33,646 nucleotides of DNA from an uncultured Planctomycetota bacterium. GTDB taxonomy: Bacteria; Planctomycetota; Planctomycetia; Pirellulales; Thermoguttaceae. The position numbers were made by a program, and so were the translations under genes. The stretch covers positions 1 through 33,646 of the forward strand of contig CACYBR010000518.1 of assembly GCA_902772705.1 (NCBI GenBank), in the 5' to 3' direction. The notes beneath the pieces were generated by a model. That model was not told where the DNA came from, searched no databases, and saw only the letters and a list, made by a program, of their open reading frames with translations. Within the stretch, counting starts at the first letter, position 1; each line of letters starts with the position of its first letter. Below, piece by piece: positions 24,158 through 33,205 of the stretch.

Positions 24158-27100
24158 ATGACGTCTTTTCTTCAGTTCTTTAATAACAGAGGTCGGCGAG
24201 CTAATAATCAGGCGAAACATAGTTCTCCCTTGAAGCCTCGTCGCCTCATGACGGAAACATTGGAAGAACGCCAACTCCTTGCCGTTGGCGTTTTGGAAGG
24301 CGCGTCGGCCGCAGTTTCTGACGTCGCAAACGTCATCAATATCTCCTCTGGTTCCGCTTCTGTAGAATCGATTAAACAAGCGATCGCCGAAGCTGCGACG
24401 ACGGCTGAAGACGACGTCGTCAAGATCGACGCCTCTCTTATTCAGTTTGATTCTGCCAACGACGAGATCTTGATTGACTATGATTCTTCGGCATACGGTT
24501 CGATCACGATCCTTGCCGTTAACGGAGGCGTTACGATTGACGCGAATTTTCTGGCGCGCGCTTTTTCCATCAAGAATGGCGACGTTATTCTTGATGGAAT
24601 CACGATTATTAACGGCGTCGCCGATTATGGCGGGGCTATTGCCAACGCGGGCAATCTGACTCTTGACAACGTCTCGGTTCTGGGGAATAAAGCGACAGTT
24701 TCGGGCGGAGCGATAGCGAACAGCGGCGCGTTGTATATTCAGGATTCCTTTATCACGGACAATTCGGCGTTCGGGGACGGGGCCGCGATTTACGAAGGTG
24801 ATTTCTCCTGGCCGACGGCGAACGTCCCTGAATGGGGCGTCATTCCGGAACTGATAGGCTCCAAAGGCTCTACTGTTTCCGTGGATCTTGGCGACTACAT
24901 TAACGCCGGCAACTGGACATACTCGTTTTCAGTCGCGGATTCTTCAAGCGTCATTCTTGCGACAGAGCCCACGCTTAGTTCTTCGGGCGTCCTCTCCTTC
25001 ACATTCATTGGCGACGACGCTTACTACGGCGAGGACGACTATTCAGCGCTTGAAGTTACTGTAACTGCAACTGACGGAACGAATACGGATTCCACAACTT
25101 TCACAGTCGCAATGGCGGAACAGACGTCGACGACGCTTGCCGCCATCCTGTCGAATATGACGCTTGCCGACGCTATGGACGCGTACGTTCAGGGGTCTTC
25201 ACGACGTCCTACCGGTTTTTCCGCCGATGAAATACCTTCGCCGTCTGTTGTTGACGTGACTCAAGACACGACAGTTCAGGTTTGGTTGCAGGATTTCGAT
25301 TGGGACGGTTATGCTGACAAGATTTGGGACGCCGGCGATTTCCTCATCATGGGCGTCCAGTATCGTATCCATCTTGAGAACGCGACCGTTGACGAGGATG
25401 CGTTTTCAGAGGCCTCTGATCTTGTCAGGAGTTCCTACGTACACAAAAAACTCGGCAACGGCGATTACGAATTCATCATCGCGTATACCTCAGGCGCCAA
25501 TTTTGGTTACGAGGAAGCCTTATTGCTTGACGTTCTGCCGATCAAGGCGATTGATTCGACTAAGCCTGTGAGCGCGTCGATCTACCAGTTGAGCACGGAC
25601 TTCACGTTCCCGTGCTATACGCGTCTTTATTCTACGCCGACCGAACGTGATCCGTCTCGAAGCCACATTAACGTCGATCCATCCCAGACCCTCTTTGTCA
25701 GTACGATCTCCAACTCTACGGAGCCGCTTTCCTCCGTTCCGGGCAAGGCGTTCGATACGAACGTTTCCCGCGCGGAGTTTGACGATTCGGCATACGCGTT
25801 TTCGAACGCGGGCGTTTCGGCCGTGAAGTCTCTGACAATCTCGAATTCTGTGATTGTCGACAACGACGCCTCCGGTTCCGGAGTCGTCTATATTTCTGGC
25901 GATGGAACAGCCGTTTTTCGTAATGTAACGGTTGCAGAAAACAACGTTGCCGACGCGGCGGTATACTACGCCGGATCGAACGCAAACGCCGTCATAATTG
26001 CTAACACAATCGTAGTAAACGATTTCGTTTCTCCTGTTGCCGGAAGAGCGACTGTTTCAGGAAGCCTCTTCAACGCTTCGGGCTGGAATGGAGCGATTGC
26101 CTACGAAGGAGGTTTGCTCTTTGCCGACGCGTCTACCGGCGATTATTCTCTCGTTTATGGTTCGGAAGCGATGAACATAGGCGTCGACGCCGCTGCGCTC
26201 GACGTTACGGGAGCCTCGCTCACAACCGATATTGCCGGACTCGCGCGTACCGTAGGCGTGGTAGACGCGGGAGCGTACGAATATCAGGGCTCTGTCCCGG
26301 CCGCTCCGACGAGCGTAACGATTTCTGACTACGTCGAATCGGACAAGCGCCCGACGCTGAGTTGGACCGCGTCTGCCTCGGACGACGTTGACTGGTACAT
26401 CATCTATCTGATCGACGGCGCCGAAGAAACCGTGATCACGTCGGTCGACAGTTCGACAACGTCTTATTCTGAAATTGCGTCCGTAGTTACGCTTGAGGAC
26501 AATAAGGAATATGTCTTTGGAGTCGCCGCTTACAACGAATTTGGCACGTCTTCGATCGCTACGGTTACGCTCAGTACCGCGTCCGCGCCTTCGGCTCCGA
26601 CCAACCTTGCGTTTGGCGAATACAACGACGGAACGGCGACGCTGAGCTGGGCTGCCGCCGATAATGCGACCTCCTACAATATTGAATCCCTCGATTCGAC
26701 GGGAACTTGGACTGTAGTCGCCAGCACGACAAATCTTTCCTATGACGTTGTGGGTTTGAACGTCTTTACGACCTATACGTATCGTGTAACGGCTGTGAAT
26801 TCTGCCGGTTCCGCTTCTTCCGACTCAATCGAGATTACTCCTGTTGGCGCTCCCGACGCGCCGACTGGTCTGAAATGGGCGTCTTCCTACGCTGGAGACG
26901 GAACAGCCGTTCTTGAATGGACTCCTGTAGATAATGCCCGAGGTTATACCGTTTACCAGAAGGTCGACGGCGAATGGACTGCGGTTGGAACGGTAAGTAG
27001 AGCGACTTATTCCTTTAGCGGTTTGCTTGACAATACGACCTATGAATTTAGCGTCGCCTCTTATGCCAAGGACTCCGACGGCAATGTTTATTATTCTGAC

Positions 27101-30100
27101 GCGACAGAAATCACGCTTACGACCACGGCTTCGCCAGACGCTCCGACCTATGTCGCCTGGGCGACTGAGTATTCAGGAACTGGCGACGCCAAATTAATTT
27201 GGAACGAAGTCGACGGCGCCTATGCGTACTCTATCGCTCAATATATCGACGGCGAATGGACTGAAATTAAGCGTATCCGCGCCACGAGTTACACGCTTAC
27301 TGGACTTGATAACAACAGCGAGTACGTCTTTGGCGTCGCCTCTTATTCGACGTCGGGGTCTCAGAGATATTATTCCGACTACGCCAGCATCGATCTGAAC
27401 ACAATTGTCGCGCCAGACGCGCCTGCGAACGTTCGCTTTGCGCCCTACGCTGGCGGGACGACGGCGTCCTTGACCTGGAATGCTTCGGATGGCGCGACTG
27501 GCTATATTGTGGAAACGATGAACGCTTCCCGTGAATGGACGACCGTTGCGAGTACGACGCAGACACGATATGACGCGACCGTTGAGGAGAACTCGTTCTA
27601 TGTCTATCGTGTTTCTGCATATACGACGGTAGGATCCAAAACTCTTTATTCCAAAACAGTTACGGCGAATCTTGATACGTTGGTCGTTCCTTCTGGCGAC
27701 CTGAACCTTGTTGTTTCAGGCTACGACGCGGCGACTGGAACGGCGGAACTTTCCTGGAATGAATTGAGCGGCGCTGGTTACTATGCGATTTACGAACAGG
27801 TAGAAAATGGCAACTGGTCGATGATCGAAGCGTCTGCGACGGGCGCCTCCTACGTCGTCTCCGGCCTCGATATCAATACGAACTACTCTTTCCGTGTAGT
27901 TGCCGTGAACGCCGCCGGCGCGGGCGCGTCCGAAGAAGTCTCCCTCTATACTTCCGCAGTCCCGGCAACTCCGTCTGACGCGGCCTTTGGCGATCTCGAT
28001 GCGAACGCCTGCGAAATAACGATAACCTGGTCTCCCGTTGACAACGCGACAGGTTATACGGTGGAAGTTTATGATCTGGCGACAGACGTCTGGTCCGTTG
28101 TTGACCGCGACGACGACGCCGCGACCTCGTACATCGTGACCAACGTTGAACGCTATACGACTTACACGTACCGTATTTCTGCGTATAACGACGCGGGTTC
28201 GTCTGAGCCTACGGTTGTTTCTTACGTAAACACTGGTGTTCCGGAGTCGCCGACGAACCTTGCCGTTCAGTTCTTCAAGGCGGCGATGTCGGCGAATCTG
28301 TCCTGGGATCTCATGGCAGGCGCCGACGGTTACAATGTTTACCTGAGGACCGGTTTTTATACGAATTGGAATAAGATTGCTTCTTTGTCGTCGATCTCTC
28401 ACTTTTACACCGTACAGGGGCTGGCTAAGAACACCGATTATGTTTTTGGCGTTTCAGCTTTGAATTCCGACGGTGAATCGGAGCTTTCGACCATCGAGCT
28501 TTCCACGCTCTTCGCACCAGACGCCCCGGCAGACGCAACTTTTGTTGACGCGGGTTCTTTCAATGGTAGCGCGACTTTGACATGGACTGCCGTCGACGGC
28601 GCCGAGGGGTATCTTATTGAGCAAAAGTCTGGCGACGAATGGGTCGTCGCTACCGTGCTTGACGGCGACGCTACCTCCTGGAGCGTTTCCGGGCTCGAAG
28701 AATCGACCGTTTACACCTTCCGAATCTCCGCATTCAACGAGGAAGGATATTCCGACGCCGTGGAGGTTGCGCTGTCGACAGGCGCGACTTCGACGCCCGA
28801 GGCTCCTACTGATTTCCAGATCGCTTCCTACAGCGAAGAGACCCATCGTGCGACGATGACGTGGACCGATAATGCCACGAACGAAACTGGATACGAGATT
28901 CAGTACAGTTACGACGGTTCCGAGTGGCGCTCTGCCGCGATTCTTGGCGCTAATGTGACGACCCGCGTTGCGAGCGGCTTGACGCCTGGCGTGACCTATT
29001 ACTTCCGTCTTGCGGCGTTTAACGACGTCGGATACTCCGACTGGGTTCAAATTTCCTATGACGTTCCGGCTGAAGTTCCTGCCGCTCCAACGAACCTGAC
29101 CTTTAGCGACTACGACGCCTCCGCTCAGACGCTCGTCGTGTCCTGGACCGACAACTCCGACGACGAAATTGCTTTCCGCGTCCAGTATAGCCTTGATCAG
29201 AATCAGTGGTACACAACCGCGAATACTGACCCCGACGTTACCTCGTATACCGCTTCGGGACTCGTGGCCGGGAGAACGTACTACTATCGAGTCGCGGCGG
29301 TTGGGCTTTATGGCGTTTCTGATTGGGTTTCCGGCTCCTACACCGTGGAATCTCCTGTTTCGGACACGCCTGCCGCGCCCTCTGACATTGTCTTTACCGA
29401 CGCTGAAATAACGACGAGCGGCGTTGACGTTACGATGTCCTGGAATGACAATTCCGACAATGAAGATCGATTTGTCGTCCAGTTTAGCTATGATAATACG
29501 AACTGGTACGGAGCTGGTTCTACCGAAGCGAACGTTACGACGCGCAGAGCTACCGGCCTTGTTTCCGGCAGGACTTACTATTTCCGCGTCGCGGCGTATA
29601 ACGACGCTGGATATTCCGACTGGGCGACCGCAACTTACGTTGCCCCGTCCGCCGACGTCAATCCGCCTTCAGAGATTGTCTTCGGCGAATACTCTAACGG
29701 TCAGCTGCCGATGTCCTGGACCGATAATTCCGACAATGAACTCGGCTTTGTCGTTCAGTTCAGCTATGACGGCGTCAACTGGCACCGCGGCGGCACGACC
29801 GAGGCAAACGTTACTTCACGTGTCGCGACCTCGGTGTCCCCCGGGCGTCTCTATTACTTCCGCGTTGCCGCATATAACAACGAAGGTTATTCCGAATGGG
29901 TTGTCGGTCAGTACACGACGCCCACGGGCGCGCCGGTCGCTCCTGGCGCGATTACGTTCTCGAATTACTCGCCCGCCAATCGTACTGTCGACATGACATG
30001 GGTTGACAATTCTGGCGATGAAACGGGCTTCAATATTCAGTACAGTATTGACGGAGGCGACACATGGCTTGTTTCCGGCAATACATCCGCTGACGTCAAC

Positions 30101-31156
30101 TATCGAACCGCGACAGGTTTGCGCGTTGGCACGACGTATCAGTTCCGAGTTCGTTCTTACAACCCCTACGGTTCTTCCGGATGGACGACGGGCTCCTTTA
30201 GCGTTCCCGTATCGGAAAACGCGCCAGCCGCTCCGACGGACTTCGTCTTCGGCGAATATGACCCCAACGCGAAAACTCTGTCCATGTCCTGGACGGACAA
30301 CGCCACGAACGAATCGGGCTTTAAAGTTCAATATAGCGTAGACGGCGGCGCAACCTGGTATTCCGCTGGAACCTATGGCGCGAATGTCACGTCGCGTACA
30401 GCGACCAGCGTTTCTGCTGGCCGTAGCTATACGTTCCGCGTTGCCGCGTACAATTCTGACGGAACTTCTTCCTGGCTTACCAGCGAAGCGTTCGAGGCTT
30501 CCTCTTCCGTCAATATTCCCGCCGCTCCAACGAACGTGGTCTTCGGCGATTACGACGCTGACGCTCAGACGGTCGTTATGTCCTGGACTGACAATTCGTC
30601 CAACGAGAAAGGGTTCAAGGTTGAATACAGCGTTGACGGAGGCACGACCTGGAACGACTCCGCGTACCTTTCCGCCGACGTAACTTCCCGCACTGTTACC
30701 GGATTGGTCGCTGGTCGTAATTACTCGTTCCGCGTTGCCGCATATAATAACTATGGTTATTCTGACTGGGCGATCGGTTCGTATTCCGTCGTTAATGCCG
30801 ACTCGACGCCTGCTCCGGTGGATCTCGCGTTTACGTACTCCACGACGAAACGGCGAATCACGCTTAGTTGGTCTGGCGACGCTGCGAGCTACAATGTTCA
30901 ATATCAGCCGACGACGGGTTCTGAGTGGTATTCGCTCGTAGCGAACGGCACGAGCGCGTCCCTCACCAACGTGATCTATGGTTCTGCGTATCGCTTCCGC
31001 GTTCAGTCTGTCGCGGACGACGGCTCGCTCTCCGAATGGACGGAAGGTTCCTATGACACGCGGACTGGCGGGGCAATTGCCTCGAACGTTGAGACTGATT
31101 CAAACGCTGAACTCTTTGAAGAGATTTTCAGGGATTACCTTGACGACCTTCTCTGA
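24158..31156 (+). CDS. Giant secreted protein: LEPR-XLL-like N-terminus, beta-helix, 17 fibronectin type III domains
   Basis: A 2332-residue surface or secreted protein. AAGGAG six bases before the ATG fixes the start. The N-terminus is basic and carries LEERQLLA (35-42), a variant of the LEPR-XLL motif of planctomycete exported proteins; there is no classical signal peptide. Residues about 130-212 form right-handed beta-helix coils (GGAIANAGNLTLDNVSV, GGAIANSGALYIQDS). A ~330-residue block with an Ig/cadherin-like part (TVSVDLGDYINAG, LEVTVTATDGTNT) interrupts the helix. It resumes at about 545-712 and ends VVDAGAYEYQG, the closing motif of choice-of-anchor-Q-type proteins. Seventeen Fn3 domains of ~93 residues follow (about 715-2303), in two sequence classes, then a short acidic tail. 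There is no dockerin, LPXTG or C-terminal membrane anchor, so attachment is unexplained. An adhesive or structural role in the envelope is inferred. It has a strong promoter, a long leader and its own terminator. Confidence 0.92.
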   Translation: MTSFLQFFNNRGRRANNQAKHSSPLKPRRLMTETLEERQLLAVGVLEGASAAVSDVANVINISSGSASVESIKQAIAEAATTAEDDVVKIDASLIQFDSANDEILIDYDSSAYGSITILAVNGGVTIDANFLARAFSIKNGDVILDGITIINGVADYGGAIANAGNLTLDNVSVLGNKATVSGGAIANSGALYIQDSFITDNSAFGDGAAIYEGDFSWPTANVPEWGVIPELIGSKGSTVSVDLGDYINAGNWTYSFSVADSSSVILATEPTLSSSGVLSFTFIGDDAYYGEDDYSALEVTVTATDGTNTDSTTFTVAMAEQTSTTLAAILSNMTLADAMDAYVQGSSRRPTGFSADEIPSPSVVDVTQDTTVQVWLQDFDWDGYADKIWDAGDFLIMGVQYRIHLENATVDEDAFSEASDLVRSSYVHKKLGNGDYEFIIAYTSGANFGYEEALLLDVLPIKAIDSTKPVSASIYQLSTDFTFPCYTRLYSTPTERDPSRSHINVDPSQTLFVSTISNSTEPLSSVPGKAFDTNVSRAEFDDSAYAFSNAGVSAVKSLTISNSVIVDNDASGSGVVYISGDGTAVFRNVTVAENNVADAAVYYAGSNANAVIIANTIVVNDFVSPVAGRATVSGSLFNASGWNGAIAYEGGLLFADASTGDYSLVYGSEAMNIGVDAAALDVTGASLTTDIAGLARTVGVVDAGAYEYQGSVPAAPTSVTISDYVESDKRPTLSWTASASDDVDWYIIYLIDGAEETVITSVDSSTTSYSEIASVVTLEDNKEYVFGVAAYNEFGTSSIATVTLSTASAPSAPTNLAFGEYNDGTATLSWAAADNATSYNIESLDSTGTWTVVASTTNLSYDVVGLNVFTTYTYRVTAVNSAGSASSDSIEITPVGAPDAPTGLKWASSYAGDGTAVLEWTPVDNARGYTVYQKVDGEWTAVGTVSRATYSFSGLLDNTTYEFSVASYAKDSDGNVYYSDATEITLTTTASPDAPTYVAWATEYSGTGDAKLIWNEVDGAYAYSIAQYIDGEWTEIKRIRATSYTLTGLDNNSEYVFGVASYSTSGSQRYYSDYASIDLNTIVAPDAPANVRFAPYAGGTTASLTWNASDGATGYIVETMNASREWTTVASTTQTRYDATVEENSFYVYRVSAYTTVGSKTLYSKTVTANLDTLVVPSGDLNLVVSGYDAATGTAELSWNELSGAGYYAIYEQVENGNWSMIEASATGASYVVSGLDINTNYSFRVVAVNAAGAGASEEVSLYTSAVPATPSDAAFGDLDANACEITITWSPVDNATGYTVEVYDLATDVWSVVDRDDDAATSYIVTNVERYTTYTYRISAYNDAGSSEPTVVSYVNTGVPESPTNLAVQFFKAAMSANLSWDLMAGADGYNVYLRTGFYTNWNKIASLSSISHFYTVQGLAKNTDYVFGVSALNSDGESELSTIELSTLFAPDAPADATFVDAGSFNGSATLTWTAVDGAEGYLIEQKSGDEWVVATVLDGDATSWSVSGLEESTVYTFRISAFNEEGYSDAVEVALSTGATSTPEAPTDFQIASYSEETHRATMTWTDNATNETGYEIQYSYDGSEWRSAAILGANVTTRVASGLTPGVTYYFRLAAFNDVGYSDWVQISYDVPAEVPAAPTNLTFSDYDASAQTLVVSWTDNSDDEIAFRVQYSLDQNQWYTTANTDPDVTSYTASGLVAGRTYYYRVAAVGLYGVSDWVSGSYTVESPVSDTPAAPSDIVFTDAEITTSGVDVTMSWNDNSDNEDRFVVQFSYDNTNWYGAGSTEANVTTRRATGLVSGRTYYFRVAAYNDAGYSDWATATYVAPSADVNPPSEIVFGEYSNGQLPMSWTDNSDNELGFVVQFSYDGVNWHRGGTTEANVTSRVATSVSPGRLYYFRVAAYNNEGYSEWVVGQYTTPTGAPVAPGAITFSNYSPANRTVDMTWVDNSGDETGFNIQYSIDGGDTWLVSGNTSADVNYRTATGLRVGTTYQFRVRSYNPYGSSGWTTGSFSVPVSENAPAAPTDFVFGEYDPNAKTLSMSWTDNATNESGFKVQYSVDGGATWYSAGTYGANVTSRTATSVSAGRSYTFRVAAYNSDGTSSWLTSEAFEASSSVNIPAAPTNVVFGDYDADAQTVVMSWTDNSSNEKGFKVEYSVDGGTTWNDSAYLSADVTSRTVTGLVAGRNYSFRVAAYNNYGYSDWAIGSYSVVNADSTPAPVDLAFTYSTTKRRITLSWSGDAASYNVQYQPTTGSEWYSLVANGTSASLTNVIYGSAYRFRVQSVADDGSLSEWTEGSYDTRTGGAIASNVETDSNAELFEEIFRDYLDDLL
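26300..31065 (+). repeat. Tandem array of 17 fibronectin type III domain repeats
   Basis: About 280-base units begin with codons for APxAPTxxxF and contain a strand with L/M-S/T-W and a TYxFRVAAYN-type strand. Units 1-9 (to about 28800) share TLSW-x-x-x-x-x-A-x-x-Y, while units 10-16 share MSWTDNSxNExGFxVQYSxDG and are closer to each other. Unit 17 is divergent (LSWSGDAASYNVQY). The pattern suggests two phases of duplication, the second more recent. Confidence 0.88.
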
Positions 31157-31309: not shown

Positions 31310-33205
31310 TCAAACCACATAGGTTCCGTCCCAGCGAACGAACGCCTCCATGGCGTAGAATTCCGGGAGTCCGATTCGGTTGTATGCTTCAGCCGTTTCC
31401 ATGTTTCGTTCCTCTGCTCGTTGCCAGAATTCTCGCGCGTCGTCGCCAAGGAAGAGCGCGCCGTCTTTCTGGGACGCATGGCGGAAGATGGCTTCGCGTT
31501 TTTTTTCAGAGTCGCGTGGGAAGAGAGGAACGGCAAGCTGAATCTGGTCAAGGGGCCATTCTTCCCAAGCTCCCCGATAAAGCAGGACTTCGGGAACGTG
31601 CTCGCCTTCGTTTTTCATTTGATGAAGAACGGCAAACGCGATGAGCGCGCACACGCGGTGTGTTCCGTGTGGATCAGAAAGATCGTTGGCGATGAATATT
31701 TCGTCCGGTTTGATCTCGTCAATCAGATTGCGAACAAGCAGGTGATCCGTTTCTGTTGGGGGAAGTTTTTCAACGGCTCCCGTTGAATAGAACGGGAGGT
31801 TTAGGAAGTGGACATGTTCCTCTGGAATACCGCAGACCTTGGCTGCTGAACGCGCCTCGCTCCAGCGGATCAGACGCTTAACGCTGAGGACTTCCTCAGA
31901 ATCGCGATCGCCCGGTTTCTTATTTCGGAGCGGCGTCTGGATTTTTTCTTCCATCTGTTTGGCGACCTCTTCATTGCCGTCAAATTGCCGATTGATTTCC
32001 TCAAAAAGGTCGGCCATTCGGTAAGCGTCGTGGTCGTTTACGGCAATGTTGCCGCTGGTCATGTAGGCCACGTGAACTTCATGTCCATCGTCGACGAGAC
32101 GAATCATCGTACCGCCCATGCTAATTACGTCGTCGTCTGGGTGGGGACTGAATACCAGAATTTTTTTACGATCTAAACCACAGGGATGCTGAGCGATTGT
32201 GCTGGTCATCCACGAAAAAACCCTTGCGGAAACCTCTGGCGCCGGTCCGGCCTGGCGCAGGAGCGAGTGAAGACCATGGGCGCGAAAGTCGCTGTCCGTG
32301 AGTTTTAACAGCGCTTTATTCGTCTTTTCACAAAGCCAGAGCACTGCGCGTTTGATCATGTTGTCAGTCCATTCGACGGGCCGCGTAAGCCATGGTGTGG
32401 CGACGTCCTGTAATTTGGAGGCGGCGCTTTTATCAAGAATGAACGAAACGTCGCGGTGTTCGCGCAGCCAGCCTGCCGGAATCGCCTTGGAAACAGGTTC
32501 CTCAAGAGCGCGATGAACGACCTCGGCCTTGGCGTCTCCGAACGCCAGAACGACGATCTTGCGCGCTTCCATCATGGTGCCGAAGCCGAGCGTGACGCCG
32601 TGGGTCGGAACGTTGGACTCGCTGAAGAAAAGCGAGGCGGCGTTGAGGCGTGTTTCTGGGTCGAGTTGAACAAGACGCGTACGGCTCGTTCTGGAAGTAT
32701 AAGGTTCGTTAAAACCGACCGCGCCGTTCGTGGAAACGCCAAGCAGAAGAACGTCGAAACCGCCGGCTGCGACGATCTCGTTTTCGTACTGACGGCAACT
32801 GGCTTCTATCTGCTCGAGCGGAAGCGTTGCGTCGAAGAAATGCACATTCTCCAGAGGGATATTCATCTTCATGACGAAGTTGTCCATGAGCCAGCGGCGC
32901 ATACTCTGAAGACGATCCTTGTCCAAGCCATAATACTCATTGACGATGAAGAGGGACGTTCGATAGAAATCGAGACTATTTTCTTCATGAAGCCGAACCA
33001 GTTCCTGATAGACTCCGATTGGACTGGAACCCGCGACAAGGCCAAGCGTCGCGTTTTGCCCGAGGGAGTTTCGATCTCGAACGATCGAAGCAATCTGTTG
33101 GGCAACGTGGTTGCACGCGTCCGCTCCTGATTCGAAAACATACGTTGGCGCTTCGACTTCACGCGCCGGAAGCGCCGCACGGGGCGTCTGATTGATGATC
33201 GACAT
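31310..33205 (-). CDS. NagB-like (glucosamine-6-phosphate deaminase fold) and PIG-L deacetylase fusion protein
   Basis: A 631-residue two-domain protein. ATG 33205 (MSIINQTPR) is chosen because homology to NagB starts just after it; the open frame to 33421 has basic, unrelated-looking sequence. Residues about 20-270 have the NagB/6-phosphogluconolactonase fold (TLGLVAGSSPIGVYQELV, LENVHFF, GFNEP). The catalytic residues of E. coli NagB are mostly replaced: Asp72 by Asn89 (VNEYYG), Asp141 by Asn160 and His143 by Ala162 (GVSTNGAVGFNEP); only Glu148 remains (Glu167). Residues about 345-620 are a PIG-L/LmbE zinc deacetylase domain with SPHPDDDVISMGG near 353-365 and PHGTHR near 512, both metal motifs intact. 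NagB/PIG-L fusions are known, for example in Bacteroidota. The likely activity is removal of an acyl group from an amino sugar, with the NagB part acting as a binding or regulatory module (inference). There is no signal peptide, so it should be cytoplasmic. Confidence 0.9.
   Translation of the reverse strand: MSIINQTPRAALPAREVEAPTYVFESGADACNHVAQQIASIVRDRNSLGQNATLGLVAGSSPIGVYQELVRLHEENSLDFYRTSLFIVNEYYGLDKDRLQSMRRWLMDNFVMKMNIPLENVHFFDATLPLEQIEASCRQYENEIVAAGGFDVLLLGVSTNGAVGFNEPYTSRTSRTRLVQLDPETRLNAASLFFSESNVPTHGVTLGFGTMMEARKIVVLAFGDAKAEVVHRALEEPVSKAIPAGWLREHRDVSFILDKSAASKLQDVATPWLTRPVEWTDNMIKRAVLWLCEKTNKALLKLTDSDFRAHGLHSLLRQAGPAPEVSARVFSWMTSTIAQHPCGLDRKKILVFSPHPDDDVISMGGTMIRLVDDGHEVHVAYMTSGNIAVNDHDAYRMADLFEEINRQFDGNEEVAKQMEEKIQTPLRNKKPGDRDSEEVLSVKRLIRWSEARSAAKVCGIPEEHVHFLNLPFYSTGAVEKLPPTETDHLLVRNLIDEIKPDEIFIANDLSDPHGTHRVCALIAFAVLHQMKNEGEHVPEVLLYRGAWEEWPLDQIQLAVPLFPRDSEKKREAIFRHASQKDGALFLGDDAREFWQRAEERNMETAEAYNRIGLPEFYAMEAFVRWDGTYVV

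Follow-up and report, generated by a model that had tools for sequence, protein, structure and literature searches.

The gene at positions 31310..33205 (minus strand) of the window, the whole 33,646-nucleotide stretch of DNA that was analysed here, encodes a NagB-like/PIG-L fusion protein of 631 aa with an ATG start, in which the residues corresponding to the catalytic Asp72 and His143 of E. coli NagB are replaced and the metal motifs of the PIG-L half are complete. With modest confidence, the protein is read from its sequence as a conserved pseudo-deaminase that would still bind a ligand, fused to a probably active deacetylase of amino-sugar salvage on which it may have a regulatory effect.

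The ORF has no internal stops, and the contig ends 441 bases upstream of its start codon. The assigned ATG fits, because homology to relatives begins at residues 2–9 throughout the genus. The protein matches NF002557 (PRK02122), an NCBIfam entry labelled 'glucosamine-6-phosphate deaminase-like protein', over its full length (796.1 bits vs a cut-off of 384; profile positions 27–651 of 653), and has the layout of that family, in which a NagB domain, a linker and a PIG-L domain form a single chain. It misses the cut-off of the NagB equivalog TIGR00502 (182.1 bits vs 236.9). The fusion architecture is already known, since NF002557 covers the full length and Pfam detects both PF01182 and PF02585; the initial annotation had correctly described a fusion but had missed this named family. 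A search for a paper on the activity of the NagB/PIG-L fusion found none in the literature collection covered.

The NagB-like domain, which is catalytically incomplete, spans residues 25–268 (32402..33133, minus strand; PF01182 and AlphaFold2 model). It is followed by a helical linker conserved across the family and delimited by the secondary structure of the model (residues 269–344; 32174..32401, minus strand), and by a PIG-L/LmbE-type deacetylase domain (residues 345–631; 31313..32173, minus strand; PF02585 and structural match). In the AlphaFold2 model (mean pLDDT 79.5, from a 13-sequence alignment), the N-terminal half superposes on Bacillus subtilis NagB (2bkv_A; TMt 0.95, rmsd 1.5 Å), and the C-terminal half resembles the archaeal diacetylchitobiose deacetylases 4xm1 and 8bgo. 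In some Gemmata-type relatives the gene appeared to be split into two ORFs; these are actually two alignment pieces of one ORF.

Alignment to E. coli NagB (1cd5), which has no indels in the catalytic motifs, places Asn89 (32939..32941) at the position of catalytic Asp72, Asn160 (32726..32728) at that of Asp141, Ala162 (32720..32722) at that of catalytic His143, and Glu167 (32705..32707) at that of Glu148, which is kept (all on the minus strand). The four correspondences given in the initial annotation are thereby confirmed, and its count of three lost catalytic residues out of four holds for Asp72 and His143, which are truly gone, but not for Asp141. Asn at the latter position is an ordinary variant: B. 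subtilis NagB, whose crystal structure was deposited along with kinetics (2bkv), has it, and catalytically intact fusions carry Asn, Thr, Ser or Asp there. Asn160 is therefore not diagnostic, and a third catalytic loss by Asp141-to-Asn replacement is ruled out. All 30 of the catalytically intact relatives that were compared have Asp72 and His143, and both residues are lost throughout a well-supported clade, which supports the earlier proposal that the deaminase half is dead or altered; from this pattern we infer that deaminase activity has been lost in the window protein.

The ligands of the phosphate group are partly preserved: the loop is mostly kept, Lys208 is kept and Arg172 is replaced. 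The phosphate-binding loop reads LVAGSSP (residues 56–62; 33020..33040, minus strand; LPTGGTP in E. coli), with Thr41 changed to Ala58, and Lys226 (32528..32530, minus strand), at the position of the phosphate ligand Lys208, is present in 15/15 sequences of the window's clade and lost in other dead lineages. Thr41 and Tyr85 of the pocket are changed in the window's clade as well, which counts against the favoured reading. In every fusion read, those of Bacteroidota included, another residue (Asp, Ser, Thr, Gly or others) stands at the position of Arg172, which binds phosphate in E. coli NagB; the initial annotation missed this change, although the positions it gave were right. The corresponding region of the window protein comprises residues 190–194 (32624–32638, minus strand), and the fusion family has one inserted residue upstream (TRxDAASDFF vs TRVANSRFF). 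Because Arg172 is replaced in all fusions read, the altered phosphate site is a family-wide property, and even the 'intact' members of the family may bind or use GlcN6P in a non-standard way, which is a further point against the favoured reading; Lys208 is kept.

The metal motifs of the PIG-L half, HPDDD (residues 355–359; 32129..32143, minus strand), which is also catalytic, and HGTH (residues 513–516; 31658..31669, minus strand), are both whole, as previously annotated, and PF02585 matches at 76.2 bits (vs 28.2). These motifs are intact in nearly all complete fusion copies. One fusion from another family, L192 (G273:C89), has ADPNGTH for SDPHGTH in a PIG-L motif and an intact NagB site; this pattern is the reverse of that in the window, possibly reflecting a dead deacetylase.

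All 16 fusions of the window's genus have Asn at position 72 and Ala or Ser at position 143. The same pattern occurs in two sister genera, g29 (one genome) and g32 (four genomes), with Thr at position 72 in one of the five, and the three genera form a single clade in a tree of the PIG-L half (UFboot 100, SH-aLRT 99). The alignment with other NagB/PIG-L fusions that had been suggested as a check thus places the losses clade-wide, in 16/16 sequences of the genus and in five from the two sister genera. As 16/16 congeneric fusions share them, the losses are not sequencing noise. An artefact of misalignment, frameshift or contamination, which might be suspected in MAG data and in a contig that ends so close to the start codon, is refuted for practical purposes by an identical residue pattern in 16 independent genomes, the absence of indels from the motifs and the uninterrupted reading frame.

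Separate losses are found in three further genera of the same bacterial family. The g28 fusions have Arg at position 143, Asp or Glu at position 72, and no Lys208; those of g37 have Gly or an unread residue at position 72, Arg at position 143 and His for Lys208; and that of g2 has Ala at position 72, Asn at position 143 and Ser for Lys208. On the PIG-L-half tree, these patterns need at least three changes at position 143 (bootstrap range 2–4) and at least five at position 72. The fusion is present in 44 genomes of the 119-genome bacterial family, and His143 is replaced in 27 of these 44, as read genome by genome, whereas about 120 fusion loci not known to belong to the family all have His143 and lack Asp72 in only two cases. 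Judged from these residues, catalytic-residue loss is recurrent within this bacterial family. With His143 replaced in 27/44, database names of the type 'glucosamine-6-phosphate deaminase' should not be relied on for such genes in these planctomycetes.

After the loss, the NagB half has remained under constraint. Its mean identity is 65% within the loss clade vs 63% within the intact sister group, and that of the PIG-L half is 70% in both; between the loss clade and the intact sisters, the NagB half is more diverged than the PIG-L half (50% vs 62% identity). With a fixed topology and the catalytic columns left out, the NagB/PIG-L branch-length ratio is 1.05 for intact lineages, 1.59 for the stem branch that leads to the loss clade, 0.94 within that clade and 1.67 within g28; the stem value alone is not significant, because single-branch ratios scatter from 0 to 2.6. 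The dN/dS of the NagB half is 0.03–0.11 in loss-clade pairs and 0.02–0.10 in intact pairs. Simple decay is disfavoured by these rates. It is accordingly very improbable that the NagB half is a disappearing relic, under selection relaxed after a second NagB had made it redundant: the somewhat accelerated stem and a separate NagB-like protein with Asp72 and His143, present in all 12 congeneric genomes that were checked, would agree with such a course, but post-loss rates and dN/dS are as low as in intact relatives, and all 16 congeners have a full-length fusion.

Constraint is strongest in the pocket. Within the loss clade, 20/33 pocket columns are invariant vs 57/211 in the rest of the NagB domain (p=0.0002), the pocket set consisting of known motif stretches that are prone to conservation anyway. 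Gly59, Ser60, Pro62, Glu90, Glu167 and Lys226 are kept in 15/15 sequences, and Val57 and the triplet Tyr169-Thr170-Ser171 are newly fixed, the triplet (15/15; 32693..32701, minus strand) lying beside the active-site motif. The other dead lineages are without Lys208 and Pro62, and mostly without Gly156. In g28, g37 and g2, conserved pocket residues are kept at 62% vs 85% (0.848) for non-pocket residues, and the corresponding figures in the window's clade are 70% vs 77% elsewhere. A pocket that is dead but re-used, as in the window's clade, can therefore be told apart from one that is dead and eroding, as in the other lineages.

This difference bears on whether the NagB half serves purely as a structural scaffold, one that keeps linker and deacetylase properly shaped or assembled into an oligomer and binds no ligand. 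That the same fusion has lost its catalytic residues several times is in keeping with a scaffold, and the copies of g28, g37 and g2, with eroded pockets, no Lys208 and the remainder of the domain kept, do look like scaffolds. For the window's clade this explanation is unlikely, since the pocket there is more conserved than the rest, Lys208 and the loop are kept, and the replacements are fixed. A little less likely again is an enzyme with altered chemistry or substrate, in which Asn89, Glu90 or Glu167 would carry out ring opening or isomerisation without deamination. Strong conservation, the fixed new pocket residues and the retained equivalents of Glu148 and Glu73 are compatible with residual catalysis; the deaminase has lost its two proton-transfer residues, however, and no other Asp or His has been fixed in the motif. 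The homologous 6-phosphogluconolactonases make use of the conserved His too, which counts further against an altered enzyme. Purifying selection, the intact phosphate loop, Lys208 and the newly fixed pocket residues together suggest retained ligand binding, and the NagB half of the window protein is predicted to bind a phospho-sugar.

The second NagB-like protein, with Asp72 and His143 intact, is encoded in 12/12 genus genomes checked, the window's and those of 11 congeners, and could be the working deaminase of the genus. This rules out the idea that the genus has no NagB apart from the fusion. The second protein (L139, G000:C148:4620-5270; congeners L246–L255 and L258) has the motifs HMDEY and GENGHVAFNDPP (HMDEY...GENGH), with Glu148 changed to Asp, and scores below all NagB equivalog cut-offs. 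The NagA-like protein in the window's genome is below the curated cut-off, and no MurQ above the curated cut-off was found in the genus. MurQ-like proteins of about 620 aa (G000:C34:585-1271 and congeners) have two matched stretches in a layout like that of the two-SIS glucokinase regulatory protein.

Around the fusion in the window's genus, no recurrent amino-sugar operon was found, the neighbours being TruA-like, FHA/phosphatase-like and surface-protein genes only, as judged by eye. In the window, a 2332-aa protein with fibronectin-III-like repeats (24158–31156, plus strand) is encoded convergently with the fusion gene and has the N-terminal sequence LEERQLLAV, as in planctomycete surface proteins; a large opposite-strand ORF lies downstream of the fusion in eight loci of the genus. 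Among Bacteroidota-type loci, 13/34 have a gene of peptidoglycan-recycling type within about 5 kb, and the neighbours in these 34 loci include GHL10 (9), MurQ (7), AmpG-like MFS (6), NagZ-type GH3 (6) and AnmK (5); the names AmpG, MurQ and NagZ are presumed, Pfam itself giving MFS, SIS and GH3. The product of MurQ is GlcNAc-6-phosphate, and a deaminase acting together with a deacetylase would turn this compound into fructose-6-phosphate. The MurQ-type neighbourhood in Bacteroidota is the best clue to the role of the fusion family. As the window's own lineage has no recycling operon around the gene, any function for its protein is transferred from distant relatives, which weakens the favoured reading.

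As the sequences show, the common ancestor of the genus and its two sister genera lost the general base Asp72 (replaced by Asn, once by Thr) and His143 (replaced by Ala or Ser), with the PIG-L metal site left whole. The change from Asp to Asn removes the base and preserves size and hydrogen bonding, and that from His to Ala or Ser removes the ring-opening residue. Under normal purifying selection thereafter, the NagB half retained Lys208 and the phosphate loop, and part of its set of pocket residues is new. In the favoured reading of a ligand-binding pseudo-deaminase, deamination of glucosamine-6-phosphate would be gone and a phosphorylated amino sugar would still be bound in the old pocket, so that this half would serve the deacetylase as a binding or docking module. 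The PIG-L half would be an active metal-dependent deacetylase whose substrate is a compound of N-acetylglucosamine, with GlcNAc-6-phosphate or a closely related conjugate as the likeliest candidate. Where deamination is needed, it would be provided by the separate NagB-like protein of the congeners, and the deacetylase product could therefore be spared for cell-wall synthesis.

The idea in the initial annotation of a sensor half by which the deacetylase would be controlled or fed is plausible but unproven. In its most specific form, a pseudoenzyme would sense a hexosamine phosphate, such as the substrate or product of the deacetylase, and gate the fused deacetylase allosterically, and the parallel inactivations in sister lineages would end as scaffolds; this form is tentative, and we consider it somewhat improbable. 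If true, a domain that began as a metabolic enzyme would have become, without leaving its place in the chain, the regulator of the domain fused to it. The family offers a phylogenetically controlled case in which one domain of a two-domain enzyme appears to have been switched off several times and the other retained; in one lineage the dead pocket has been preserved and re-tuned, and in others it has eroded. These close natural controls make the transition from enzyme to sensor testable.

Among known systems, NF002557/PRK02122 is matched by the window protein in both domains and the linker, but members outside the bacterial family have retained His143 and, with two exceptions, Asp72, whereas the window's clade has Asn/Thr and Ala/Ser. 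A second, distant type of NagB/PIG-L fusion, about 790–870 aa long, occurs in the same bacterial family (L147, G007:C49; L148, G035:C248; L149, G022:C157). It has FN[IV]RGSDHHSTTRL in place of FNEP, so that Glu148 is absent, and keeps Asp141 and His143; its PIG-L part has EPHHDD for HPDD (read in L147 and L148), and NF002557 gives the copy in L148 no more than 191 bits. Monomeric B. subtilis NagB (2bkv/2bkx) is the nearest solved NagB (32% identity) and shares the close fold and the Asn at the Asp141 position, but in it Asp72 and His143 are present and the TGGT loop is intact. The PIG-L/LmbE deacetylases (archaeal diacetylchitobiose deacetylase 4xm1 and 8bgo; BshB) have the same HPDD metal motif, C-terminal HxxH and fold, whereas the deacetylase domain in the window is fused behind a NagB domain. 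A precedent for a NagB-like fold that binds phospho-sugars without catalysis is provided by the sugar-phosphate effector domains of the SorC/DeoR type; those proteins are transcription regulators, whereas the window protein has no domain for DNA binding and has an enzyme as the partner of its NagB half.
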